Assembly (NCBI GenBank): GCA_963920765.1
Contig: OY987250.1
Coordinates: 10,656,409 to 10,720,408 of the forward strand
DNA length: 64,000 bases
Direction of reading: 5' to 3'
Origin: Ulota crispa
Taxonomy: Eukaryota > Streptophyta > Bryopsida > Orthotrichales > Orthotrichaceae
Positions 6,886 through 46,110 of the stretch are shown one piece after another. The notes under the pieces were generated by a model. The model made no database searches. It saw only the letters and a program-made list of their open reading frames with translations, and was not told the origin of the DNA. The first letter of the stretch is position 1. Each line of letters opens with the position of its first letter. Position numbers and translations under genes: made by a program.

Positions 6886-9800
6886 CTAGCTCTCTAAAGC
6901 CCCCTCATACTCCATAGCGTGCACAGCGCTGGAGTACTCCACCTGTACAAGAGGCTGCAAATCAGTCTCCTCAATGGGCTCCGTGCCCAGCAGCAGGGCG
7001 ACAGCTTGCGGTGTCGTGGGTCGCAGCTCCGGGTTGTCCAGTGTACACAGCAGGGCTGTTTTCAGGGCCCGCAACACCTGGTCCCTGTCGTACAGGCCCT
7101 GCAGCCGAGAATCCACCAGGGACACCAGCGCCTCGTCATCACTCGCAGTTTGGGATTGCTTGTACATGCACCTCACCTGCCAGCCAAATCATCAGAAGTT
7201 TGGGGTGTTTTTCTAGATTTTCTCTCTAATAGCCAAAATCGGATGCTTCCATATTTTCCACACAACGTAATAATATGTATCAATAGAAAAAAGGGAAAAT
7301 TTTTATGGATACCCCTGTAGTTGGCCATATTTGTATAGATACTCCTATTTTTTCAGAAATTGCACAAATACTCTTGGACCATAATTTTGTTGTGCAAGCT
7401 ACTTCCTTCATGACCAATGTCAAAGCAAGGAGTACAATAGAACAAAATAAAGAAATGGGCACACAAAGGGAGAAGAAAGTGGCATGCACAATAGGACAAA
7501 CGCCTAAAAGTTATGGTCTAAAGATGTTTGTGCAATTTCTGAAAAATCATAAGTACTTACACAAATATTGCAAACTTCAACAGAATCCATAAAATTTTCC
7601 CTTTACCCTGTCATTTAAATCACTTTAATTCTCATTTAGTCAACAATTAAGGTTCATGTTGACAGTTGGTGTTAGTGTTTGAATCCTACTTTAGAACAAG
7701 CTAAACTATTAAGGTACTAATTCAAATTTTTTGGTAGTAACTTAGTTTACAAATAGTGTTCATGCTGATACTGATAACAATACTAGTGTTGATGAAATTT
7801 AATGCTACAGTTTGTAGTTGGTGTTTTCAACACTAGGTATCCTTATTAGTGTAGTTATGCTGGAAAGGCAAAGGGGGCTGGCTTGCTTTGCTTACTCTGT
7901 CAACAAGGAAGAGCAAGGCCCCGGAAGGAGTGCGCTTCATGTTCAGCTCGCCCGTGACAATTTCCATCAGAACCACGCCGTAGCTGTACGTGTCCACCTT
8001 CTCCGTCAGCTGCCCTCGCGTCACGTACTCCGGAGCCAAGTACCCCCTTCCATGCCCACCCGTTCCCACCCAATAAACACAATCAAACTAAAACTCCAAA
8101 GCACGTAAACCACTTGGAAGGGGGAGGGGTTCACATTCGCATAGAGCAAGACATCATATAAACCAACAAATCTTTGCTAAAAAAATGTCATATAAATGTT
8201 GACTTCGAATGTGTATAATTTTCTTTTGACAAACATTAACTCCATGTTTTTGCAACTTTTTCCTAAAACTATCCTTACTTCTTATAATTACAAAGAGTTT
8301 CAACTTACTAAGGGATGCTATGAACATTTCATATGATTGTTAGGTCTTTGTTGCTTTATGCTGTCTTGCACCATACAGAGCAGATTAGGCTGCAGAATTA
8401 GGGTTCTAAGAATAAGAGCTACTCAACTACTCCTCATAATCCAACATTATGCACTCTTTCTTTTTTTTCATTCCTTGACGCCAACTTCTAGTCAAATTTC
8501 ACTGCAAAATTTCCTCTGTGTGGTTTAAGATGATAATGCTTAGACTTATCAGGTATTATGCCAGAAATATAGTACTCCTTCGTAAGCTTTGCCCTCGTTG
8601 TTAGCACTTTTTATGTGTTTATTTGGGTAATACCCTTTTTGTCAAAATATAGTCCTATACATTTGCATGCAGGGGCACGTACAGGGTGCCGGCCACATTG
8701 GTGGTGAAGTGCGACATCTCCTCAGGGAAGAGCTTGGCGAGGCCGAAGTCGGCGATTTTGGCTTCCAGGTGGCAGTCCAGCAGGACGTTGCTGGCCTTGA
8801 TGTCGCGGTGGATGATGCGCGGGGTGATCTCGTAGTGCAGGTATGCCAGGCCCCGCGCCGTCCCCAGCGCTATGCTGAACCGTGTGGCCCACTTCACATC
8901 CACCGCTTCCTTGGGACCCCCTGCCCCCAACCACACCCCACACCCACACACTCCCACAACATCAGCAGGACCTTCCAATACACAAAACACAACAATAGGG
9001 GTAGTCACACCTTCTCCAAGACTGAAACTTTTATGAGGAACGAGAAGTTGTGGAGTGGAAATAGGAGTCAATGGGAGCATATCTCCATGAAAAAGGTGTG
9101 ATTTCCCTTTAGTGGGTGGTGAAGAATGGAGAATGGTTTACAATGGTGTTTGGTTAGCGTCAACCTTTGTAAGAGCAACAATTGGATAATATCACAGCCC
9201 CACTCCCCTTTTGCTCAAAAGCATGTATTATGAGCTTGATGAAGGTCAAGTGCTTGGATATGGTCAACATTTTCTTTTCATCAATTCCCACTTTGACTCC
9301 TTAGTTAGAAAGGCGGTTGGTTAGTGTACCAAAAACATGGGTGGGAAAGCACCTCCAAAGTTGCAACCCTTAGAACTAGGGAAAGTAACACAAATGGAGG
9401 GTTTATTTATGATCAATGCTTGGATAAGGTCACCACTTTTTACTAGCCTGAAGTGTTGACGCCAACCAAGCTCCACTAGTAAATGGTGATGAAAGCAGGA
9501 GGAGCGAGCATTAAAGTAGGTGGAAGCATGAAAATAGGAGGAGCAAGCATGAAAGTAGGAGGAGCAAGCATGAAAGTAGGAGGAGCGAGCATGAAAGTAG
9601 GAGGAGCAAGCATGAAAGTAGGAGGAGCAAGCATGAAAGTAGGAGGAGCAAGCATGAAAGTAGGAGGAGCAAGCATGAAAGTAGGAGGAGGGAGCGTGAA
9701 AGTAGGAGGGATTAGCCTGAAAGCAAGAGGAATGAGGATGAAAAGGAGACAAGTAATTTTGATATAAACTTTGCATGCAAAGATTTCTTCACCTCATTCT

Positions 9801-12800
9801 TCTTCTTTAGAAATGAAGAAAAACTTCTCAATCTTCAAAGAATGGGACTTTTGCAAATCAAGAATAGAGCGCCACAATCCCATAATTTGAAGAATGAGAA
9901 TGGGGGGGGTGAAGACTACCCATACTAGTTCTTAAGCATAAACTGAGTTGAACTCACTACAGTTTCTTCTGTGTCCTTACTGTAGGCCAAAGCATTTCAT
10001 CCTAAGATCTTTGTTGATATTGTTAGTTCAAAGTTCAAACTTAAAGAAGAGTTTAATTAATTATGTTTGAGAGAGAAAGACGGATTAGGATATAAAGTCA
10101 TATATGGGACTATGTCACTATGGGTTAGGGGCTGACCGAGCAAGGTTTGGCGAAGGCTTCGGTTTTCGAGGTACTCGTAGACGAGCAAGCGGTGGCGGCC
10201 CTCGACGCAGCAGCCCCGTAAGCGCACGAGGTTGCGGTGCTGCACGTGGCTGATGACCACCACCTCGTTCAGAAACTCCCGCACGCCCTGCTTCGACGTC
10301 GCCGACAGCTGCTTCACCGCCACCAAAGTCCCGTCCTTGAACCTCCCCTGCCACGTCACCCCCCCCCCACCCACATTCCCCCTCAACTCACTCACTCCTC
10401 GGTACCAGCTCCACCATGGGTTATGATTTGCGTGTTGATAAAAAACTTACTAATCCTAACAAGGATCGACTACCACAGACACCATATTAGGTAAATTGGA
10501 AAATTGGGGGGACCATTTTGTACTCTCCACCATAATCTTACATACAGTAAATGTAAGCACAACTATAGCTCAAAGTTGTAATTATTTGAAATTCTTGGAG
10601 GCAATCACTGAGACTTCAGTATTATACAAGAAAGTGCAAGTTTGTTTTTTGGTAATACGCTAAATTGTATATAATGGCAGAAATAGTGATATTCCCCTAA
10701 TGTATTGTTTTTCCCAATTTACCTAATCTGGTGTGGACTGCGATAACTTCTTGTTGGTGATTCATGAGGTTTGACAAAATACCTGGTAGACCGCTCCGAA
10801 GCCACCTTCACCCAGCTTCATATCTATATGAAACTTCTGGGTAGCAGCTTTCAGCTCCTTATAAGTATACTGGTTTGTTGAAATAGATTGCCGTGCAAAA
10901 TCTGTCAAAAATGAAAAGAAAAGAGACAAGCTCACTTCTGTAAGTGGGTAGTTTTCCATAACATTCTTCATCCAAAAGCCATGGACCAACCGAAATATTA
11001 CAGCGCTATCTCCTCCATGGTAGAATGGTAGCCTGCCTTGAATGGGAGTGAACTTGGAATAGCAATGCAATATGTAAGAGAACTTCTATAGACACCCAAA
11101 AAAACAATAGTGCAAGTTCAAAACTCATACTATATTAGTGAAAAAGTCAAATTGCCCATGTGAGGTTTCTTCAAGGCCAACTATGTAGACAATGAATTTG
11201 GTTGTTTTAATAAATAAACAACTCTTATGCTTTACATTATTGGACAATACTGTTCTATCCACATTCATTCCATAAATCACATAACACACCATATTAATTC
11301 ATTGACAAGAAAAATGTGATCACAATCTAATTATAAAGCGTGGGTTGTCTGACTATCACACTATATTCAAAAATCTCTATTAAAGTCACAAATTTGAAAT
11401 TAACTGATATAAAGCATTGGGTGTCAAGCATTGGGGTATATGCCCATTACCCAAACTTTCAAATTTAAAAAAGGAGGAAGGAGAAGAAATGTTAGGGAAA
11501 GGGACGGTGAAAAGTCATCAGAAATTCAAGGGGAAGGGATAGAAATAAGCAAGGAAAGGGAGGGTGATATGTCACTTGAAAAGTCACCAAATATTAAGAA
11601 AGACACAACACAAGTGAAGGCATACTCATGATTATAAAAATTGACCTCAATGACTCATTGCCAATCATAGTGGACAAAGCTCATAGCCATTGTGGACAAC
11701 GTTCACAATCATGTTTTTCTACTACACCAAATAGTGCATTTGGGTTGCCTTAACAATTAGGTTGCCTTACAATTTACCTCATGACTCACTCCTAGACACC
11801 TAGAAGGGCATGCAACTCCCTTTATGCTACAAGAACTCTTAATGTTGTCTAAAGTTCCAACTTTCCTACTCCTTGACTCTGAGGCTTGTTGCTACGCCCA
11901 ACCTTTGCTTGCTTCCTCCATTGTTTATCACAATAATTGTTGACAAAAGTTGATATAGTCTTGGTAAATATTTAAATAGTGTGAAATGTTGAGAAATTGC
12001 ATGGAGCAACCCAAATGCATCATTTGGTGTAGTGGTTACAAATTCTGACCCTTCTTTGCTTGAACTTTGCAATGACACCACTTCCACATGCCATGTCACA
12101 TTTTCACAAATCCGGTGTGGCAGAGCTTAGTGCAATAATGTCAAAACCTCAAGAGAAATGTGAAAACCTCACAAACCTCACCCAACTTTCAAATTGAAAA
12201 AAAAAGGCAGAAGAGTGTGAAGTGGTGCAGCTGACCTTCTTTGGTCTCTCGAATGGATAACTGAGCAGCTCGGCGTTTCAAGAGGAAGTAGGAGAGGAGG
12301 AGGGTGAGGAGAACCAGAGGGCCCGGCAGAATGGACGCCACCAGCACCAGCGTCAGGTCTCGTTTGGGGGGCCCTTGGAAAGCGCAGCTGGAGCAGCACA
12401 GGTTCTGCAGGAAGGCGTCCGTGGGAGTCTGGTCCCTGAATGCCGTCTGTGGGCACAGCGCTTGGTCATGTGCTTCCACTGGCCTGCTACACTTGCTCAG
12501 ATTCACCTGCCCCAGTAACACTTCGCATTAGTAAAATTACAAGTCCTCCAAGTGGCCCTTAATTTGTGACTCTCTTAAAGTGTATTGAGTTTAGGTCAGG
12601 TACATGAGAAGTCTATGTGAAGTATCACTATCTTGTATGATTTTTTTATTATACAAGTACTAAGCATTACAAAGGTATGAATTTAATATGATATTTCAAA
12701 CTTGAGTTGCACAATTAAGTACTGTGGCACAATTTTTTATGGTTTCTTGGTGTTGTGCACCATTATGATTGGATGGTTGCCTTGTTTCCATTGGAACCCA

Positions 12801-15800
12801 AGGCTCTTAGCCATCATTGCACTCCAGGATTTGGATTGAGAAAAATAGGTTATAAAGTATTTTTCATATCTCAAAGTACAAATTAAAAGCTGTATTGGGG
12901 TCCCTTTAAAAGGGGCATGCAAGGGGGTCTACAAGGTTCATTATTTTGCTAATGTTTCCCCTAAAAAAAGTTAAGTCTAAAAGCCAAAACCTTCAACGTA
13001 TTTGGCAAGTACAATTTCAAAAAAAATTGAAAAAAAATAGAAGTAAAAGTACACAAATTGGTTGATTGAAACAAACTCAATCAGACGCACGATTAGCAAT
13101 TTTTGCACTTGACCATATAAAATTGTACTTATGATTGTATGAGCAAAATGTACTTCATCTCCAACAAGGGGGGCAATTGCCAAAATTTGCACCAAGAGTG
13201 GGGACTTTTTTTTTTTTCAACTTATTTTTTAAATTTTTATTAATTTTTATTAATTTTTATTTAGTTAATTTTTATGTAATTAATTTTCAATTAAATACTT
13301 AAGTAATTATGAATTCAATTTTTAATTTTCCCCTCACTCCCTCACACCCCACGGAGCTGCGTGGGGTTAGAGGGAGGGGGGAGGGAAAAAAATGAGGGTC
13401 AGGGGTCAGAAGGGGGTTTAAATAGTTTTTTTTTTTTTTTAATTTCAAATTTTCAGATTCTGCCACTTGTCCTTGCATGGGCAGACAAGGACACGTGGCA
13501 GACTCTAAAATTTTGAAAAATAAATAAATAAATAAAACTATATAAAGCCCCCTTCTGACCCCTCACCCTCATTTTTTTTCCGTCCCCCCTCCCTCTAACC
13601 CCGTATAGCTCCGTGGGGTGTGAGGGAGTGACGGGGAAAATTAAAATTAAAAGTAATAATTACTTAATTAATTGAAATTTAATTTAATTTAATTTTAAAA
13701 TTTACATTAAAAGAATTTAAGAAAAGTTTTAAAAAAAAAACCCTTCACTTATGGACCTCTTTTAGGTCAGCTTGAACATTTTAGTTATAGTTGGGTGCAC
13801 GGAGATTGCACTTGGTCAAGTGCAAAAATAGATAATTGCACGTCCCTATTGTTCAAATGGAAAATTTGATGTATACCCTTGAAGTTTGTAATATTTGTAT
13901 AGATACCCCTTTGTTTTTCAGAAATTGCACGAATACCCTTGGACCATAATTTTCAGGCATTTGTTTGTTTTGTTGTACATGCCACTTCCTTCGTGATCAA
14001 TATTGAAGCAAGGAGTGCAATAAAATGGAAAAAAAAAAGTGTGCACAAAGGGAGAAGGAAGTGACGTGCACAACAAAACAAACGCCTGGAAAATTATGGT
14101 TCGGAGGTATTTGTGCAATTTCTGAAAAACCAAAGGCATTTATACAAGTAGTACAAACTTTAGGGGTATCCATCAAAATTTTCCTTGACAAAAAAGGACT
14201 ACGGATGTTGGCCTGGTTTGGCTGAGTTTCTCCCAGAACATTGCTCAATGACCCGTACAACCATCGTTTGATTTTTCTTTTAATTAAAACGTGTTAAGAA
14301 GCTTCATAATTTGAGGAGAATTTTAGGATATAGCACGTACTTAGTCACAAAGTGACGAGACAGAAGCTATTAATTGTAGTTCTCCCCTTAAAAATGTAAT
14401 TCCTAGCATCATTTCAAACAACCCATGAGCCTTAATTTTCAACGTTTCTCGATTTCATTGTGCTCCTTCAGAATAACAACTTTTTGAGAGTTATGGACAC
14501 TAGTTACACGTTCACACTGTGTCGAAGTTATTGTTTGGGCCTTGGAGGTAAATCCAGGTAACCATGTTAAAGAGGGTCAAGGGGGGTGAATCCTGAACCT
14601 CGTTCATTTGACAGGGCAATGGAACGCTGGCAACGTTTGCATCGACAAATCTCTTGGCAATGGCAGTGGTGATGGCATCGGAATTCACAACCACGTCTAT
14701 ACCCGCTACTCCATACAGAATCCCTTCACTCATAACTGCACAAGCCAGACACCAAAGGGGAATTAATTTATCCATGCTATCTGCTATTTCCAATAATATC
14801 CACACCTTACTGGCCCAGAAAATTGTATGAAAAAATCCCTCAATACGGACCAGTCCATACTTGAAGAGTTTTCAATTCTTGAAAAACAAAAATGACATCA
14901 GAATATCTTCCAATCACAACTTCAATGTATAATCAAAACTTGCTGTTGTAATCTAGAACTAGTTATGGGAGCAACTAGGCGGACACCCCATAGCCCAACC
15001 TATTAAATTTGAGATAATTATTACATTGAAACACAAAATGAAATCAAAACAATAATATAGTGTATATCTACATCTACAAGCATTGTAAACATACAACAAA
15101 TACGCCTCATTTGTAACCCGGTCAGACCAGTAAATGAAGGGAGCGACTGGTAGTTAAACTAGTAAATGAAGGGCGCGACTACTTTAATTCCTGACCGTGT
15201 AACAAAACTATGATCTGATGGTAGTTGTGCAATTTCTGAAAAGCCAGAGGCTCACAAACTTCAGGGGTATCCGTCATATTTTCCCTTATTAGGTGATATA
15301 GTAGTCAATGGACACAACCAGTTCTTCAGTATTTGGCCAGCTCCATTTGCTGAAGAATGTTGTATAATACAAAGAGGAGGGTAATCATGTGGGATAAGTT
15401 TGCAAAAGCAGTCGGAGAAAAGAGAGAGAGAATGGCAGAAGAGCAGACCTGGATACGTGACAGTGGCGACGAGGCCCAGACCATCGAAGTCATGGTACGT
15501 GTCCGTCCAGAACGTGCTGTTGGCCGTGGAGCGCAGCGCCGCTTGGTAGTCAAACAAGGGCCGGATGGCCCACAGCGGGTTCCGCTGCGCATCCACGCCG
15601 TCCACGCGAGTCACGGTGCTGTTGTTCATGAGGCACGACAGCGCTCGAAGCTCCGCAAGCGGGTCCAGCGTCGTGGTCGCCGTCGTCGCCGTGGCATTGC
15701 CAGTGTCTAAGACGAAGAAGAATACTATCACGCCTTGCGAGCTTACCGATGTCACCACTTGCTGCAGTGCTGGTGAGTCCTTGGTGAAGCCGTTCCTGGC

Positions 15801-18800
15801 AAAGCTCCCATCTGTCACCACCACTACCATCTGGCCCACACCAGCCCCAGCATACACACTACAAAAATAAGCAGTCACATTCTCTATAGCGATGCTTGGA
15901 TAAGGTCAACCTTTGTAAAAGAAATGTTTGGATAGTGTCAAAAACATCATACTCCCTCTGTCTCATTACAAAGTTCCAAAAAAATTCATTGTGAGGGATT
16001 AACTGTATTTTTAATCATTATGTTAGTGAAAAATGCATTCTAGAATCAATATTCCACCTACCAAGTATCTGCAAAATCTCAAGTTTTTATTTTACCATTT
16101 AGAAACCAAAATTCCATGCAAAAAGTACCATATTTGTGCAAGGTTTGTGAAGGTTGCCAACTCCTCATTATTTTAGTCTTTGTACTATTAACACACACGT
16201 TCTAGAATTAATGTACCATTTACCAAATGTGTGCAAAATCTCCAGCTTTGATGTTGCCTTTGGGCACCCAAATTCCATGTAAAAAGTACCATAGTTGTAC
16301 ATGTTGCTAGCTCCTCATTATTGATGATTTAAAGATAAGTAGCAACAATGGTACCTCATATGGGCAAGGCCAAGCTTGTTAGGAGAGGAATGCTCTTTAA
16401 TTGCTTAACTTGCCCCCATGAGATCATTGGACATGACAAATGCTTTCTCAACAATTGAAATTAGCAAAAAGGAGATTTTTAGTGGGACAAGAACTATGCC
16501 TAATTTGGAGTTTTATATTGGGACAGAGGGAGTATTAGATAACTTGGGAAAAACAATACATTTTGGAACTTGCACTATTTCTGTCATTATGTAAAATTTA
16601 GCATATTGCAAAAAAACAAGCGTGCACCTTCTTGTACAATAGTGAAGTCTCAGTGCTTGTCTCCAAGAATTTCAAATATTTACAACTTTGAGCTGTAGCT
16701 ATGCTTACTATTACTGCATGTGAGGTTTAGATGGAGTACAAAATGGTCCCTCTATTTTTCCGAATTTACCTATTATGGTGTTCAAAGTTTCACTCTCTCT
16801 TTTGTATTCTAAGCTCAGTTAAATGGAATGTTTGTTTATGATCAATGCTCGGATGTAGTCATTGATTATTTCTTGCCCAAGCCATTGACCTTATCCAAGC
16901 AGGACTATAGTTATTGGCATAGCCATGCCAAGGGTTAGTGTTGAAAACAACCACAACTCTGTTGTAGTGACTAGTTAGAATAGGATTCTAGTCCATCTTC
17001 TTTCTTCTTACTCCAACAGAGAACCTCCGTGTTGATCCTAGAATGGAAAAACCCAAAAACAGCGAGCAACTCCATGTACTAGAACTTGTCTTTTATTGCT
17101 TTTAAGTTTCTCAATTTTAAAGTTGATATGAAGTTAGACTCTAAGCCCTTGACTCACCCAACAATGTAGATCTAAAATGATTGAGCATTTGCACCCAATA
17201 TTGCTTTTGAAGCTTTTTATCTCTTTTTAGCACATCCAAGTTTTCATCTAGAACAAATCCTTTGTAATCTGTGTCAAGTCAGGTGTTGAAGCAATCATGT
17301 CATTGTCTCGTTGACAAGTTACAAGGGGATTACAATCAATTGTTCTTGTCCTTCTTGTCATTCTCAACTCTTCTCTCAACCAAAAATTTCAAATATGGAA
17401 TGAATTAGCATAGCATTTGTGTCTAAAAATTGCTCTCAAGATGTCTGTCTCTCTCTAGCGCTATTATAGATTTGTAGTTTTATTCTCACAATACATAAGC
17501 GGTTGCAAACCTTCTCATAGTCAAATTTTTAATGTAAAACAATTTAGTGATTACAGCAACAATAAAATCCAAGAACTGAAAACTTGATACATTTGCATAT
17601 GACTACACACCACAGTCACTCTTTTCTTTCCTCTTTCTATTCAACCTCTCAGTTTCCCAAGACCTATTTTTTCCATCATTAAAGTGAAAATTCCCTCATT
17701 GTAACGTCTTCATTGAAATAAGGATAGGTAACTCTAAATTCGGAGCAAAGGTGTGAAAAAAATTACATAGTACACGTCAGCAAAGATGAATGAAAAAATA
17801 CCTTCAGTTTGCTGGTGGAGTTGAAGGCTGCTATTGCTTGAGCAAGTCCACCCGTGATGTTCGACAGCTCTCGTTGGGAGTTAGTCAACCGAGAGATTCC
17901 GAAAGTGTTGTACAACAAGTCCGGAGGTTGATCCTGATGGACGGCGACCTGCAGTTTCATGAGCGTCACTGAGATATTCATGGAATGCAAGCCTTTGTCA
18001 ATACACGGAGAAACAGTCACAAAGGGCAGTTCTCCACAAGCAAAAGAATCAACATTGGGGATAGTCACACCTTCTCTGAGACTGAAACCTCTGTGAAGAA
18101 TGAGAAGTTTAGGAGTGAAAATAAGACCCAATGGGAGCACTTTTCCATGAAAAAGGTGTAATTTTCCTTATTTTTCTTTTGTGGGTGGTGGAGAATGAAG
18201 AATAGAGAACAAAGAATGGAGAATGGTTAAAGTAGGAGCAAGGGTGAAAATATGAGGAATAGGGGTGAAAAGAGATAAGCTTGGATAAAAAATTTATAAT
18301 TTCTTCATCCCATTCTTCTCCTCCAAAATAGAAAAGTTTCTCAATCTTCAAAGAATGAGGTTTCTACAAATCAAGGAGAGAGTGCCACGTCCCCCATTCT
18401 CTGAAAATTCAGAAAAGGGTGAAGAAGGTGTGACTACCCCTAAATTATCAGAAACAAAAGTGAGATTTCTTTGCAGAGTTTTGTACCGAGGTTGGTCGTT
18501 GTAAGGTAGCTCGAGTAGCATTGAATGTAGCCACGTTGACACGGTCGCCGACCGTGAACGTGCTAAAGAGCTCTTTCACGACGTTCTGGGACAACGCAAA
18601 TGTGGACTGAGAGGCTTGCCCTGTATCTAGCAACACTACTAAATCCTTCGCAACCGATGTAGCAGTTATATACCTGCACAAACAAGAAAATCTCGCTTCA
18701 AAATGTCAAAAAACTCACATTTTCTCTTGGTTAGGACACCTGTAATCCCACTGAGTCATGTTTTGTGGCAACATTGCAAATTGCGAGGAAAAGAATTGCA

Positions 18801-21461
18801 AAGTTTAACACCCCTATTAGGGGAATGTGATACCGGGAGCTATTTTTTTTGGTTAAGAGATCAAATTTCACCTATAATTGTGTACATAGGGTGATAAGGG
18901 TCCTATAATTGTGCATTTCAAACTTTCATCTCTTGAAAAACTTGTCCTTTTTTAAGTTTTTCCACTGATATTGAGTTCGTAATAGGTTTTTGCTCACAAA
19001 ATCTTAGCTTACTGCTCATGGCTCACCGTTATACGCTCACAGAAATAGCGTTATCCCCCAATTGAGATTTGGGACTACCATAAGTTAAGCAACTCAGAAT
19101 TTACAACTTGGTTGTGAAAAAGTGGTTTTGTGAAGCTCGTGTTTGCTGTTTTCCACTACTAAGTTTCTAAATTTGAGTTTTCTTAGTACATTTTTTTTAT
19201 GGCAAGTAGAGGGATCTGGAACAACAAGGACTATTTAGTAAACTTGACGATCATAAACGAAGACTCATTTAAAGCAGTCTGTTACTGCAGAAGCTGAGTT
19301 TTAGGAAGTGCAATTACTTTACCAGGGCCGTTTCCGAGGGTCATACTCGATGCAGCCCTTCAAGGGGTTGGCTTCCTGTGAAATTCCAAAGTTCCTTGAC
19401 GTCAGTACTGAATTGCTTGCATTTCAAAGTGATCCTTTTTTCTCATACTTTTTCCGGGACTTTTTCCTTCTGAATATCGAAAGCAGGTAGTAGTAACTAC
19501 CGAAGTACAAGTAGACAAAAGCAGGGGTTGGAAAACCAAGGTTTGCAGAGCTGATTTCAAACTTGGGATGAACCCTGAGCAGCTGACACGTACCCGGCCA
19601 GGATAAATACGCCAGGCGCCCTCCGCAGATCCGAAGTAGTTCCAGAAAGTGAGTTCAGTGAAGATGGTTTCACTGCTTGCAGGGAACTGAAGATTTGACT
19701 GAGAGCAGATAGCTCTCGTCAACTCCGGACTCAAATTGGAGTAATTACGAAACTGAGGCGGAACACTGAAACCACCAAAGAGATTATTAGGGTAAGGTAG
19801 TGTGCTCTAAAACCATCAGTTTAAGGGCTGGTCTGGCATGGGCTTTTCAAGATAGAAATATTTTTTTGTCTAATTTTCAGATAAAAAGAAATGGATACTA
19901 CATGTAACACAATTCACTTGCAACTTCTGAAGAGATGAAGTGAAATCAAGAAATATGATTGGCTCTTGCAATAGAACATACCTTTTTTTCTATGATTTAA
20001 AGGGCTCAGTTTATTGCACATACATTGATGTGGGGCCATGACAGAAATGCTCAGGTATTTTTCCAAACAAGGATAATAATAATAACTTACCCCCCTTTTT
20101 CTTGTTCAATTGTATCCTCCTCCAAGGTCGCAAACTAAAGCAAGGTCATGAATTGAAAATTCTCAAGTTCAGTTCCCAATGGTAAATATCTAAACTCTCA
20201 CATTTTTTGGCTGGTGAAAAAACAGTGCTTTTCCACCCTGGCCCCACGTTGACATATGTGAGGTAAACTGAGCCGAATTAAGAGGGTCCATTCAAAAACC
20301 ACTTCATATCCATTGCTGAGCTACCTATGTCAATTAGAGCACACGACCTTACACCCACCAGTTTAGGGCTTCGTCCATTTTACCCTAATTCAGTCAGCTC
20401 AAACCTACCCTTCCCCGACTTCTAAACCAGCAATCAACGAAACCAACAAACCATAAATCTCAAAAAATCACAAATCTCAAAAAAAGAGCAGCAACAGACA
20501 CACTGACACAAAAAGCAAAATGCTCTACATACCGCACGAACCCATTTCCGGTGAAGTCGACCTTGATGTGCAAGCAAGCCTCGCTGCCATTGCCGGAGCT
20601 TTTACAGTCGGTGACATTCCTCGGAGCCTGAACACAACTGAAATGGTCCTTCTGCGTGGGTGAACACGAATGACGCGAGCACTTATCAACGCAATTCGAC
20701 AAACCTGCACACACACAACCTCTGCTTCACTTAATTAGCTACCGATCACACCATAACTATACAGCAGGGTTTATTATTGGGCAATCTAAGGTCCAATTGC
20801 CTCAAAAAAAGAGAAAAAGGTGAGCTTCAAGCCTATAGAAAAAAAAAGGGGAATATTTTTCAAAAATTGCTAGATTGCAATAACAAAAATTGCATTACAG
20901 CCTAGGCTTTCATAAAATTCTTATGAAATTGAAAATTGATGTCATCAATTTTAAAATTATTTGAGGTGTTGCCAAACCCAATTCCATGCAGTAATGCCAA
21001 TATTTATTTGCATATTTTCAAAAAAGGACCAATGAATACTTTTTGCCTATAGTAAAAATCGTAATGTTGCAAAAATCATGCAGCATAAGGGCCACCTTCA
21101 ACTTCAACCGAGAAAATAGGGATGGGGCCCGCAAGCTACAAACTATTTTCAAAAGATGCCACACAGCCACTGGTCAGAAAACCAAAAAAGAACCCTGGCT
21201 GTATAGATTTCCAGTTTGCAAACTCTACCGGAAGGCAATATTCTAGCAGGAGCTAGCTGTTGTATTACCGCAGTCATTCGCCTCCGCTGCCAGTTGCAAG
21301 AAGAGCGCATGGTGCGCAAGCAGCTGCACTTTCTTCTCCTTGTCGTTCAGAAAATGCTCGTCCTGCGGCGTTTGCCCAGCAACAAGCTGACTCAGCAGCA
21401 ACCCCAGTAGCAGTAGTAGCAACAGCAGCAACAGCGGACGCCGTCCTTGCTTCGAGTCCAT
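6886..21461 (-). CDS. Receptor-like kinase with an alpha2delta-type (Cache/VWA) ectodomain, 934 aa, 14 exons
   Basis: Predicted single-pass membrane Ser/Thr receptor kinase. Exons (minus strand, 5' to 3'): 21461-21269, 20704-20533, 19765-19594, 19375-19323, 18673-18487, 17948-17802, 15830-15449, 14735-14518, 12506-12236, 10901-10783, 10347-10137, 8920-8683, 8046-7896, 7176-6886. All junctions are GT-AG and all phases agree, giving 2805 nt. The protein has a signal peptide (about 1-30, Leu-rich), a Cys-rich N-terminus, and the first Cache segment (about 120-198, ending RKRPWY). A VWA domain follows (about 205-330), then the rest of the Cache domain (about 415-510, with [10 protein letters not shown]). 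Next come a Cys cluster, a membrane segment (about 559-583) and a kinase (about 620-905). Many N-X-S/T sites suit an extracellular domain. The exon 6 start (17948) and exon 7 start (15830, or 15858 with a later exon 6 donor) are the least certain joins. I know of no named plant receptor family with this ectodomain. Confidence 0.88.
7293..7601. mobile_element. GGGAAAATTT foldback MITE in the last receptor intron
   Basis: The left arm (GGGAAAATTTTTATGGATACCC) and right arm (CATAAAATTTTCCC) are inverted, and similarity continues inward (AGAAATTGCACAAATACTC on the left; TTTGTGCAATTTCTGAAAAA on the right). Copies occur at 13859-14184, 22716-23017 and 59458-59781, with a fragment near 15215-15285. 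No coding capacity. Confidence 0.8.
9143..9477. mobile_element. TTGGTTAGYGTCAACC-ended MITE nested in 8998-9921
   Basis: Ends GGTGTTTGGTTAGCGTCAACC and GTTGACGCCAACCAAGCTCC. A second copy in inverted orientation lies at 37201-37556 and shares the interior (for example CATAAATAAACCCTTCATTTG there). Absence from the 18057-18440 copy of the host element supports an insertion event. Confidence 0.7.
9496..9742. repeat. 21-bp minisatellite (about 12 units)
   Basis: Tandem units of the type GTAGGAGGAGCAAGCATGAAA with few variants. Because the unit is a multiple of three without stops, several frames stay open on both strands. It lies in the intron between receptor exons 11 and 12 and is not an exon. 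A much shorter, diverged version (AGTAGGAGCAAGGGTGAAAA) is present in the related element near 18225-18270. Confidence 0.9.
10480..10733. mobile_element. CACCATATTAGGTAAATTGG-ended MITE (254 bp) in a receptor intron
   Basis: The inverted ends CACCATATTAGGTAAATTGG and CCAATTTACCTAATCTGGTG flank a non-coding interior. A second copy forms the middle layer of the nested cluster at 15892-16901. It ends about 50 bp from exon 10. Confidence 0.75.
11720..12034. mobile_element. CACTA-like MITE with CACTACACCAAAT ends
   Basis: The left end ACTACACCAAATAGTGCATTTGG and right end CCAAATGCATCATTTGGTGTAGTG are inverted repeats of about 30 bp. CACTACACC is a typical end of plant CACTA (En/Spm) elements. Related diverged segments are at 24640-24910 and 59150-59451. 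It lies in the intron between receptor exons 9 and 10. Confidence 0.65.
13084..13844. mobile_element. Large foldback element (about 760 bp) in a receptor intron
   Basis: The outer inverted ends are GACGCACGATTAGCAATTTT and AGATAATTGCACGTC. Inside, a long imperfect palindrome centres near 13470 on TGCCACTTGTCCTTG and its complement. Each arm has a C-rich box (CCCCTCACTCCCTCACACCCC, or its complement) flanked by A/T runs. No coding capacity. It separates receptor exons 8 and 9 together with the element at 13859. Confidence 0.75.
13859..14184. mobile_element. GGGAAAATTT foldback MITE, copy in a receptor intron
   Basis: Inverted ends GGAAAATTTGATGTATACCC and GGGTATCCATCAAAATTTTCC. The interior repeats the family signature (CTTGGACCATAATTTTCAGG and its complement). 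Open frames on both strands are a by-product of the foldback symmetry. Confidence 0.8.
15892..16901. mobile_element. Nested MITE cluster: GCTTGGATAAGG element holding two further elements
   Basis: The outermost element has the ends TGCTTGGATAAGGTCAACC and CCTTATCCAAGCA and is the same family as the uninterrupted 172-bp copy at 56501-56672. After its first 55 bases it is interrupted by a copy of the 10480-type MITE (to about 16784). That copy's own left end is split by the Stowaway copy at 15952-16532. The outer element then resumes. The whole cluster lies in the intron between receptor exons 6 and 7. Confidence 0.75.
15952..16532. mobile_element. Stowaway-like MITE, copy B (581 bp)
   Basis: Ends CTCCCTCTGTCTCATTACAAAG and TTTATATTGGGACAGAGGGAG, flanked by TA (15950-15951 and 16533-16534). 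It matches copy A at 1707-2287 over the whole length and has the same size. It is the youngest layer of the cluster. Confidence 0.88.
18057..18440. mobile_element. GGGGTAGTCACACC-ended MITE (384 bp)
   Basis: Ends GGGGATAGTCACACCTTCTC and GAAGAAGGTGTGACTACCCC. It is the shorter relative of 8998-9921, without the inserted element and without the expanded minisatellite. It lies in the receptor intron between exons 5 and 6. Confidence 0.75.
19795..20349. mobile_element. AGGTAG-superfamily element (555 bp) in a receptor intron
   Basis: TA-flanked ends AGGTAGTGTGCTCTAAAACC and TTAGAGCACACGACCT. The internal segment CCACCCTGGCCCCACGTTGAC recurs at about 58828-58850 (CCACCCTGGCCCCACATCGAC). The stretch about 20085-20230 resembles 24480-24610, so another dispersed repeat is probably included. 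It starts about 30 bp before receptor exon 3. Confidence 0.6.
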
Positions 21462-39757: not shown

Positions 39758-42120
39758 ATGGCTCAATCAATCTTCACAACTCCCATTGCACCTAAGCTCA
39801 GTTCAGATTTCAGGAGAGATTTCAGGCCCGATTTCAGGTGTTTTGTGTCTCCGTTGAGAGTTGCACTGTCTGTTAGTATTGGTGGAGTTTGCAAGAAGAA
39901 GAACCAGCTGACCATGGCGGCGATGCCGGGATTATTGTTTCCATCTGCTGGCGACGACGCTGCTTTCAGTACTTTAGCAGCAGTTCTGGTTGCAGCTGGA
40001 GGGCCTTTTCTAGCGTACCGTGAACTCAATGGGAACAATATGAAGTATTCGAAGTTCGCTGCAAGTGAAGGGAATAAGAAGAAGAATGCGGCGATGATGA
40101 TTCCGAGTAAGGCAGGCATGTTTCTTTTGTACTTTCCCGCCGCTTTAATTGCGAGTGTCGTTTTGGCGGGCCGACTGGAGCTGCTGCCGCTTGCGTCGGT
40201 CTTGGAGTCTTCGTCGACGTTTGGTGCTTCTGGTGTTGCATCTTATTTTAAGGATTCTGTTGTTGCTGATTTTTCCGACGGTCGTCTTTTACTTGTGGCC
40301 GCCGCGATGTCTCTTCATTTCTCTAAACGAGTTCTTGAGGTATAGGGACTTTACTACTTCTCTCAGTGATTTGGTTCAAGAAATGGCAATCTTAGTCATA
40401 TCCATTGTTATTTCGTTTGTTTGAATTGTGTGAGTTGTAGTTTCGAACTCTTGCAATGTGGATTTATAAGTTAAGAGGAAAGCGTATTTTGAAGTGTAAT
40501 ATCCTGGCATTGCACTTTGGAGAGTTTGAGCTGTATTTTCAATTTGCCCTTGAAAACGGCATAAAATGGAGTGTAAGGTAGCAGCACCCATAAGCGTTAG
40601 TTTATGGGCTTTGAACATAATGATTATTTATTAATAAACATCTAGCAAATTATAGGATCCATAGCAAATTATAGGATCCAAGAGAAAAATGATGAGTTTG
40701 CACTTTTTAATGTATTATTTGGATACTATGAGAATAAGTTGTGAATCTTTAAGAGCATACTACCAATGTACCCATAACCAACACTAAGATTTCATGTTCA
40801 CATGTTGTACATCCTTATAATTACATCTATTCACTTCCACAAATTTTTTTGAAGATTTTAGAAGGGATGGTTATGGGTACAGTGATGGTTATGGGTACAG
40901 TGATGGTTATGGGTACAGTGATGGTTATGGGTACAGTGATGGTTATGGGTACAGTGATGGTTATGGGTACAGTGATGGTTATGGGTACAGTGATGGTTAT
41001 GGGTACAGTGATGGTTATGGGTACAGTGATGGTTATGGGTGTTGCTACCTTACTTGTTCTCTGCTTTCTGTTCTAGCAATTTGAACTTATTTTCAATGTT
41101 TTTATATCTTGTTATGTGTACTTTCAGGTTAATAACAGAATCGTTGAGAGAAAATATTAGATATCAATTAAGTAATATATCCACGGTAATGGAAAAAGAA
41201 ATCAGAATTACTTGAGGAAGTGAATATCTCTTTTTCCGCTTATACTGGGTTGAAGAACCCCAGAAGAATGAAGTGTGCACAATTTTAGTCATCCTGAAGG
41301 GAGTACGTAGGAGTGGCGGCGTTTCTTTTGTGCTGCCTAATTTGATATTTTCGTCCATTTGTGTTCGACTCTGTATTTTATTAGATACAACATGAACAAA
41401 CCTTTGACAAAGTAGCAATTTTTAAAGTAAGAGTGAGTTTGGATCCATAGAATTAATATGTGTTAATTGTAATTGCGCTAATTCTTAGGGTATGTTCACA
41501 CTTGATATTAGGAGGGGTATTAGCAATATGAATGCATTCTAAAGGTATATCTAAATGCATCTAATTATCCTTAGTTACTACTACTTTTAACACCAAGTGT
41601 GAACATACCTTTAGTTAACCTGACGCTGTTAGCTCCTTTTGTGCAGGTTCTGTTTGTACACAAATATTCCGGGTCCATAAGTGTTGGTGAAACCGCCTTT
41701 ATTGGGACGTCTTATACTGTTCTAGTCAGCTTAATGCTGTATTCACAAATGATTTCCACTGGCGTTGACGCGCCGTTTCCAAACCTGAAATTATTAGGAG
41801 TTGCAGTTTTTTTAATAGGGATAATAGGGAATGCATATCATCACTGGATGCTCTCCCATCTTCGCAAGGACAGAAACAACAAAAAGTACGTTGTCCCACA
41901 TGGCAGCCTCTTTGAGTTTCTTGTGTGCCCTCACTACGTCTTTGAAATGATAGATTTCGTGGGAATAGCTCTCATCAGCCAAACTTTATACGGCTGGTGT
42001 CTTGCTTGGTTTGTACTGGTTTACTTGACCGGACGGACTATTACAACTAAGGAGTGGTACATGAAGAAAGTGGAGGGGTTTCCAGAAGACAGGAAGGTCC
42101 TAATTCCAGGGATTTTTTAA
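39758..42120 (+). CDS. Steroid 5-alpha-reductase family membrane protein (351 aa, 2 exons)
   Basis: Exon 1 is 39758-40339 (194 codons) and exon 2 is 41647-42120 (157 codons plus stop), joined in phase 0 (GAG|GTATAG ... GTGCAG|GTT). The C-terminal half carries family features: HFSKRVLEVLFVHKYSG, GIIGNAYHHWMLSHLRKD, GSLFEFLVCPHYVFEMIDF, LTGRTITTKEWYMKKVEGFP and the terminal LIPGIF. These match the 3-oxo-5-alpha-steroid 4-dehydrogenase C-terminal domain and most resemble, from memory, the plant proteins around Arabidopsis At5g16010. Such enzymes reduce a C=C bond next to a carbonyl with NADPH in the ER membrane. The substrate here is unknown. Six or so hydrophobic segments are visible. An in-frame ATG at 39914 (ACCATGG context) would give a 299-residue form. 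The 52 residues before it are rich in Ser, Arg and Phe. Confidence 0.92.
40576..41050. mobile_element. AGGTAG-superfamily MITE (475 bp) in the reductase intron
   Basis: TA-flanked ends AGGTAGCAGCACCCATAAGC and TTATGGGTGTTGCTACCT. The right half is taken up by an 18-bp tandem repeat. The element lies wholly within the single intron. Confidence 0.75.
40865..41040. repeat. 18-bp minisatellite (about ten units)
   Basis: Near-perfect tandem copies of GATGGTTATGGGTACAGT. The unit contains GGTTATGGGT, which is the beginning of the element's own right terminal repeat, so the array probably arose by slippage or unequal exchange at that end. It gives an apparent Met/Gly/Val-repeat frame that is not a gene. 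Confidence 0.95.
41488..41610. mobile_element. Tourist-like MITE (123 bp) with TTA duplication
   Basis: Ends GGGTATGTTCACACTTG and CCAAGTGTGAACATACCT, flanked by TTA on both sides (41485-41487 and 41611-41613). TTA duplications are typical of PIF/Harbinger-derived Tourist MITEs. It ends 36 bp before exon 2 of the reductase gene and so lies next to the splice acceptor. Confidence 0.8.
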
Positions 42121-45040: not shown

Positions 45041-45534
45041 AATTTGACATATGCTACACTTGACTTTCCTGTCATTCCCATGCTGACTTGGAGCACTACC
45101 TCAAATTTCAAATATATAAGTAGAAACAAGAATGGTTATAGATCATATTGCCATCCTTGTCAAATTGAAGTAACGGTTGTATTAGGTTCCATCTGATTTG
45201 CGCACAAGTAAACGTGACTGAACCAAAAAAATTTAGATAGAAGAGCAGAGCATGAAGGAGCAAGTTCAGGCTTAGAGGAATTGGATGGAATGTAGTGTCT
45301 GGAGAATTGTTGTCAAAGGCAATGATGCATCCCTGCCTAGTGCTTCCTGCATTGTCCCGATTGCATGCTGCCAACGCTCCTCTCCATTCGCCCGCTCCAA
45401 CTCACCGGCAACACTTGCGTGCAAGCCCCTCATTTGCCTCTAATTACGCCTTTTTCTTGCCATCGCATTAGCATGGGCAATTGTCATGGCAATATTCACT
45501 GTTGCTCCGCGCACATGAGCAGTGACACTGGCGG

Positions 45535-46110
45535 GTGCCGGCCGTGGCGTATGCTTTTCATCTTGCTCCGCCTAGTGGAGTGGCGGAATTTGCATCGGCA
45601 AAATTCACACCTGCCACTTGCCAACGCCATGAAAATTTTGATCTACGTAGGGCAAGGTTTCTCTTTGCAAATACAAGATGCCCCTCAGGTAAGAGGCACA
45701 AATTCCTGTGGCACTCGTCGAGGCCTAGGAAAGAAGCCACATTTGCATGGCTCACAATGAACAAGGGGCTAGGCATGGGAGAAACAATGAAGTGGGTACC
45801 GAATGCCGACCCAAGTTGCTCCTTGTGCCCCGTCCAGCTGGAAAGCGCGAGACATCTTCTCTGGGAGTGCCTGTTCGCGATAGAGGTGTGGCGCAAGTTT
45901 AACCAACTGGTGAGGCGAAACAGTAAACTAGAAATCACCACGTTTGAGCAGGCGTTGCAAAGACACTTCGACATGGACTTCACAAACGCCATTGGCAAAT
46001 ATGTCTACACCAACCAATCCGTGGATATGCTTCGCTCCTGTATCTTGTGGCAAATCTGGAATGTGCATTGTGCCAAGAAGTACAAGGCAGTAGCACATAG
46101 TGGAGAGTAG
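45535..46110 (+). pseudogene. LINE (non-LTR retrotransposon) fragment: zf-RVT region
   Basis: One frame of 191 codons has the plant LINE C-terminal signature downstream of reverse transcriptase: KFLWHSSRPRKEATFAWLTM, then WVPNADPSCSLCP, ESARHLLWECLFAIEVWRK, and a trailing CILWQIWNVHCAKKYK. This corresponds to the zf-RVT domain (Cys-x2-Cys then His...Cys). The reverse transcriptase and endonuclease parts are not found upstream, so this is a 5'-truncated or rearranged remnant. It is a plus-strand frame, opposite to the frames at 44092-45040. Confidence 0.8.

Follow-up and report, generated by a model that had tools for sequence, protein, structure and literature searches.

The question raised by the window, a stretch of 64,000 nucleotides from contig OY987250.1 of the moss Ulota crispa, is what a plant receptor-like kinase (RLK) would perceive with an ectodomain built like that of alpha2delta, a subunit of animal calcium channels. 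A gene on the minus strand of the window encodes such a protein, in which the alpha2delta/CACHD1-type architecture, a VWA domain inserted in a Cache domain, is carried on a plant receptor kinase. On balance, the gene appears to encode a functional moss receptor of the RLK/Pelle class whose Cache-VWA sensor would bind an amino acid or amine. Judged separately, a role as receptor for some small ligand is likely, and an amino acid or amine as that ligand is plausible, at a little less than an even chance. The gene structure, the fusion, the homology, the fold of a homologue and the conservation of residues reported below were all computed.

Gene structure and evidence for a single fused gene

The window gene was rebuilt from the raw sequence and comprises 14 exons on the minus strand, running from an ATG at 21461 to a TAG at 6886; all introns are GT-AG and every splice phase is compatible. 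A sequence-only reading of this DNA had proposed one continuous 14-exon gene, which is borne out by the rebuilt model, by four colinear loci in the same genome and by fusions annotated in other mosses, while its count of 934 codons differs from the 907 residues of the rebuilt model. Hydropathy analysis of the protein yields a signal peptide peak at residues 5-32 and one transmembrane segment at 530-558, with a further stretch at 333-351, inside VWA, lying right at the threshold. The Pfam scan detects VWA (E 6e-7) and a kinase (E 1e-46). The exons, with the basis of each assignment, are as follows.

21269..21461, minus strand: exon 1, start codon, signal peptide and N-terminal helix (gene model; hydropathy peak 5-32; homologue alignment)
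20533..20704, minus strand: exon 2, N-terminal portion of Cache part 1, rich in Cys (gene model; homologue alignment)
19594..19765, minus strand: exon 3, Cache part 1, FGSAEG..YPGR (gene model; family profile aligned to alpha2delta-1)
19323..19375, minus strand: exon 4, Cache part 1, YDPRKRPW with signature Y190, R195 and W197 (gene model; profile alignment; residue table)
18487..18673, minus strand: exon 5, Y198 and the beginning of VWA, with the degraded metal-ion-dependent adhesion site (MIDAS) DTGQA (gene model; Pfam; residue table)
17802..17948, minus strand: exon 6, middle part of VWA (gene model; Pfam; homologue alignment)
15449..15830, minus strand: exon 7, end of VWA and beginning of Cache part 2, with signature Y420 (gene model; Pfam; profile alignment; residue table)
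14599..14735, minus strand: exon 8, Cache part 2 with GVAGIDV and signature D449 (gene model; PDC_1 403-451 below cut-off; residue table)
12236..12506, minus strand: exon 9, stalk rich in Cys, transmembrane segment 530-558 and juxtamembrane part (gene model; hydropathy)
10783..10901, minus strand: exon 10, juxtamembrane part and Gly-rich loop GEGGFG (gene model; motif reading)
10137..10347, minus strand: exon 11, kinase N-lobe (VAVK, K623) (gene model; Pfam; motif reading)
8683..8920, minus strand: exon 12, catalytic loop HRDIKASN, of the arginine-aspartate (RD) type, and DFG (gene model; Pfam; motif reading)
7896..8046, minus strand: exon 13, end of the activation segment (APEY) and kinase C-lobe (gene model; motif reading)
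6886..7176, minus strand: exon 14, kinase C-lobe, C-terminal tail and stop codon (gene model)

A protein search with the ectodomain alone returned 11 matches, every one with a precomputed kinase domain: three from Ceratodon purpureus, three from Physcomitrium patens and five labelled lgn, a label that we take to denote assembled sequencing runs. The six Ceratodon and Physcomitrium proteins have precomputed Pfam VWA and kinase domains, and the 907-residue model aligns end to end with the 11 proteins, except that the catalytic-loop segment is missing from P0002 and the N-terminal part from P0010. The nearest relatives that bear a species name are mosses. Three of the lgn matches are proteins of 926-945 amino acids whose longest contigs measure 3.8-4.7 kb; because these contigs are too short for introns of the window-gene type, they look like spliced transcripts joining both halves. 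The database name of the Physcomitrium protein P0004, L-type lectin receptor kinase, is misleading, as its Pfam matches include no L-type (legume) lectin domain.

The Ulota genome (274.8 Mb, 157 contigs) holds four further loci, L040-L043, in which VWA, Cache, membrane and kinase exons follow in the same order, with boundaries closely matching those of the window gene. These loci were put together by chaining BLAST segments and do not represent gene models; coverage of the query begins at residue 115 in L040 and at 56 in L041 and ends at 793 in L042, whose last kinase exon was not found within the stretch fetched. One stop occurs in each of the chained L041 and L042, that of L041 falling in an over-extended segment. 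Between the window gene and L040, the ratio of nonsynonymous to synonymous substitution rates (dN/dS) is 0.133 for the ectodomain (404 codons, with dS about 2, so the value is rough) and 0.195 for VWA; the kinase has a saturated dS and a ratio of nonsynonymous to synonymous differences (pn/ps) of 0.167 (311 codons). These substitutions fit purifying selection.

A Cache domain split by VWA

A profile of the receptor family aligns colinearly with alpha2delta-1 (CACNA2D1) through Cache on both sides of VWA and also matches CACHD1 (E 8e-10). Homology confined to VWA was rejected because the alpha2delta alignment continues through the flanking Cache parts. The structure predicted for the homologue P0004 from 32 sequences is usable, with a mean predicted local distance difference test (pLDDT) score of 73.4, and has the same fold as alpha2delta-1, a comparison that the sequence-only reading had suggested. 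A prediction from just 11 close homologues gave a poor model (mean pLDDT 46.9), and the best 50 matches of an unfiltered Foldseek comparison were filled by kinases. CACHD1 does not occur among the 50 rows of a second comparison, an absence that carries no weight. Together with the HRD and DFG motifs, the alignment and the fold confirm that an alpha2delta-type Cache-VWA-Cache unit sits on a plant RD kinase.

The extracellular part of the window protein comprises about 500 residues, which makes it roughly half as large as that of alpha2delta and leaves no room for the second dCache half, which is absent; VGCC_alpha2 gave no Pfam match in the window protein up to E 10. A PDC_1 match at residues 403-451 (E 0.017) lies below the cut-off, as does a dCache_1 match in one of 32 family members (E 0.009), and the window protein has none of the latter. 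Alpha2delta-1 shares with the window receptor the Cache split by VWA, the colinear homology, the fold and the amino-acid signature described below, but it has no kinase, is twice as long, possesses a second dCache, an intact MIDAS and a lipid anchor, and serves as a channel subunit. CACHD1 is likewise a transmembrane Cache-VWA protein, and its MIDAS is disrupted according to the portion of the source available (PMC6231325); unlike the window receptor, it has a longer chain and no kinase.

The kinase and its place among moss receptor kinases

The catalytic residues of the kinase are present (K623, HRD 719-721, DFG 739-741, plus APE), and its best match among solved structures is BAK1 (E 3e-71). 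With its signal peptide, single transmembrane segment and RLK-type kinase, the window protein is a receptor kinase of the RLK/Pelle type. The earlier description of the kinase as like leucine-rich repeat class VIII (LRR-VIII) agrees in name with the group RLK-Pelle_DLSV. Three further kinase loci of the same genome have, by reading, other or short ectodomains.

A 'VWA' subfamily of RLK-Pelle_DLSV has been called moss-specific (PMC7786106, PMC11016173), a phrase that, in the portions of these papers available, is taken to apply to VWA. The window receptor has in common with this subfamily the moss host, VWA and a receptor-like kinase, as seen from the Pfam VWA match and the moss homologues. Physcomitrium P0002, P0004 and P0006 bear VWA and kinase Pfam domains, as expected of the subfamily, and the homologues of the window gene and the moss 'VWA' kinases are almost certainly the same proteins. 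The original classification of this subfamily is reportedly that of Lehti-Shiu 2009. The sequence-only reading had known of no plant receptor kinase family of such a kind, which is wrong at the level of a VWA kinase in moss because the subfamily had already been named. The available portions of its sources give the name only, with no statement on Cache, alpha2delta or an amino-acid signature found there, and a full-text literature search, from which subscription papers were mostly absent, returned nothing linking moss VWA kinases to Cache or alpha2delta. As far as their accessible text goes, a 2016 survey limits Cache in plants and fungi to histidine kinases (PMC4822843), and in a 2023 review the only animal proteins credited with dCache are alpha2delta and CACHD1 (PMC9901441). 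It appears that the kinase group was already known as a moss speciality and that the nature of its sensor is new in the literature searched.

A putative amino-acid-binding pocket

In the accessible part of the same review, the amino-acid motif of alpha2delta is described as interrupted by VWA, YxxxRxWY forming its first part and Y...D its second, and Arg241 and Asp491 are named as important for the gabapentin effect (PMC9901441). Alpha2delta-1 reads YDVRRRPWY, its third Arg standing five residues after Tyr, and the window protein reads YDPRKRPWY; in the latter the dCache_1 amino-acid signature is complete (Y190, R195, W197, Y198, Y420, D449). The residue table comprises 38 rows, 11 of which have an HRD kinase; 10 of these, the window gene included, are readable at Arg195, and all 10 carry the full signature (F at position 190 of L041 is an artefact of BLAST extension, since the locus reads YDPRKRVWY). 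The 18 liverwort rows retain R195, W197 and Y198 throughout and Y420 in 15 cases. The MIDAS of the window protein reads DTGQA and not DxSxS, so the intact site found in alpha2delta-1 and -2 was rejected; both Ser are absent in all kinase-fused moss-clade rows, and the lgn protein P0032 retains one.

Both the ligand class and the manner of activation are inferred; the small-molecule sensing that the sequence-only reading had proposed is strengthened by the intact signature. An extracellular ligand would enter the Cache pocket, where an amino acid or related amine would be held via Y190, R195, W197, Y198, Y420 and D449, the conserved Arg and Asp gripping it as in alpha2delta and bacterial sensors. 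VWA, without a classical MIDAS metal site, would act as a spacer or a partner-contact surface, and a ligand-driven rearrangement or pairing would bring the intracellular RD kinases together and activate them. The steps after the pocket are drawn from general receptor-kinase biology and are proposed accordingly as a possible course.

Several observations weigh against a functional amino-acid receptor. The structure was predicted for P0004 and not for the window protein itself, and the pocket is assigned from sequence. No Cache Pfam model scored above the cut-off in the window protein or in five relatives scanned. The RPWY motif also occurs widely in Cache domains that bind other classes of ligand. 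The equivalence of D449 with D491 of alpha2delta-1 is assumed, as the profile alignment stops short of D449, and this Asp is kept in 10 of 17 readable liverwort rows. In the comparisons with L041-L043, dS is for the most part saturated and pn/ps rises to as much as 0.48. Finally, an HGD kinase occurs in six rows (L043, Ceratodon P0012, P0008, P0009, P0011 and P0032), and Q replaces R195 in all five non-RD rows of the moss clade; P0032 keeps R195. In a tree of 33 of the 38 rows (P0010, P0013, P0027, P0029 and P0031 left out), the five form a single clade with support of 100/100, so the replacement represents one joint change and not five.

Two of the Ulota genes lie in tandem on C5, about 18 kb apart: L042 (RD, full pocket) and L043 (non-RD HGD, pocket Arg replaced by Gln). 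Their Ceratodon counterparts, with the consecutive tags KC19_2G134300 and KC19_2G134200, are P0005, an RD kinase with the full pocket, and P0012, a non-RD kinase that has lost the Arg. Such a pair may act together, possibly as co-receptor or decoy. A broader proposal, advanced tentatively, is that mosses use the amino-acid module of gabapentin-binding alpha2delta as a receptor-kinase ectodomain, that is, as a plant cell-surface amino-acid receptor, partly in RD/non-RD tandem pairs and elsewhere with a very different second kinase (P0032).

Relatives without a kinase and possible origin of the module

A protein search led by a Riccia sequence returned P0032 and 18 liverwort proteins, from Riccia sorocarpa, R. 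fluitans, Marchantia polymorpha and M. paleacea, none with a listed kinase domain. These proteins (for example, Marchantia MARPO_0110s0042) share with the window receptor the ectodomain family at 28-29% identity, conserved Cys and, by reading, a transmembrane segment; unlike it, they end, again by reading, in a short tail. A sixth Cache-VWA gene of Ulota, L044 (with L045 and L046; C3, near 21.60 Mb), has by reading a last coding exon that closes with a membrane segment followed by a short tail and a stop codon, and no kinase match was found by BLAST in about 9 kb downstream. The kinase-less form exists, on sequence grounds, in mosses and liverworts. The fused form has been seen so far in mosses, in lgn sequences grouping with mosses and in P0032.

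The sequence-only reading had expected this receptor class to be probably lost or rare in flowering plants and had suggested other lineages in which to look for the fusion. The fusion was found in the mosses Ceratodon and Physcomitrium, and the named homologues are all from mosses or liverworts, the remainder being lgn sequences; none is from a hornwort, alga or vascular plant, a weak absence given that the protein search depends on shared 5-residue words and scored only about 8000 candidates each time.

P0032 has 1015 residues, VWA, a kinase, a long juxtamembrane part and a PDC_1 match below the cut-off. Its kinase ranks FERONIA first in PDB, whereas that of the window ranks BAK1 first, and is presumably CRINKLY4-like. 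The tree places fused and kinase-less proteins on opposite sides of one branch (92/81), with P0032 beside the moss receptors on long branches and with that same modest support; because of the long branches, the placement of L044 and P0032 is unsure. A clear second, independent fusion, favoured at first for the differing kinase, was dropped since the ectodomain tree sets P0032 beside the moss receptors. P0032 is possibly a second fusion, or it may derive from one fusion with later divergence. In the same tree, P0001 (Ceratodon KC19_VG339300, presumably on the V sex chromosome) groups with L040 on C7 and not with the window gene.

At least 31 bacterial loci were listed, and eight were translated: L011 has VWA inside Cache, L028, L030 and L036 combine a Ser/Thr kinase with dCache without VWA, and four are chemoreceptors. 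The Planctomycetota protein in L011 aligns with the plant family profile over 304 columns (probability 98.9) and shares with the window receptor the Cache split by VWA and, by reading, membrane segments, but it has no kinase and an intact DTSGS. Its order of Cache and VWA without a kinase upholds the earlier view of an old sensory module. From this alignment and domain order, the Cache-VWA module may be of bacterial origin; such an origin for eukaryotic Cache generally is proposed in the accessible part of the 2016 survey (PMC4822843). Bacterial Cache receptor kinases of a different build occur in L028, L030 and L036 (planctomycete, deltaproteobacterial and Desulfonema sources), which also unite a Cache sensor and a Ser/Thr kinase in one protein but with the kinase N-terminal, dCache C-terminal and no VWA; their build would be convergent with that of the moss receptor.

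Alternative explanations

The alternative that survives best, though rather unlikely, makes VWA the business end, binding a protein, peptide or wall component, with Cache as a scaffold and the pocket vestigial. VWA domains usually bind proteins, and binding in the Arg-less clade, which persists in two mosses and three lgn sequences, must differ because the signature Arg is lost there. Against this, the MIDAS lacks both Ser in the fused moss clade, the evolution of VWA relative to L040 is no slower than that of the ectodomain as a whole, and the signature is intact in every readable RD row. An improbable second alternative is that, like alpha2delta, the protein accompanies a calcium-permeable channel as an accessory subunit, with a kinase in addition; it draws on the common Cache-VWA module and on CACHD1, which is stated in the accessible text to raise CaV2.2 currents despite its disrupted MIDAS (PMC6231325). 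The window protein, however, has no space for a second dCache half, lacks a VGCC_alpha2 match and an intact MIDAS, and carries a kinase. Land plants are not known to have four-domain CaV channels. A wrong joining of two neighbouring genes, for a Cache-VWA protein and a kinase, or a pseudogene, could appeal to the kinase-less proteins of liverworts and of C3 and to the stops in L041 and L042, but it was rejected as very improbable in view of the four colinear loci, the annotated fusions in two other mosses, the short contigs uniting both halves, and the open frame, catalytic motifs and dN/dS of 0.13 against L040.

Other features of the window

The intron between exons 11 and 12 contains a 21-base minisatellite of about 10.7 copies (9489-9709). 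An open frame at 41575-42120 on the plus strand matches 3-oxo-5-alpha-steroid 4-dehydrogenase (Pfam E 7e-29) and is likely an exon of a steroid-reductase-like gene, and a zf-RVT frame at 45526-46110, also on the plus strand (E 1e-11), is probably a retroelement remnant.

Implications

The Cache-VWA unit on a plant receptor kinase occurs in a group to which a genetically tractable model moss belongs, and the window receptor keeps the residues through which animal proteins bind amino acids and gabapentin. The anonymous family of moss 'VWA' kinases thereby gains a specific ligand hypothesis that is cheap to test. The receptor offers a kinase-coupled relative for the study of a module whose function the channel obscures in animals, and it bears on the possible perception of extracellular amino acids by plants.
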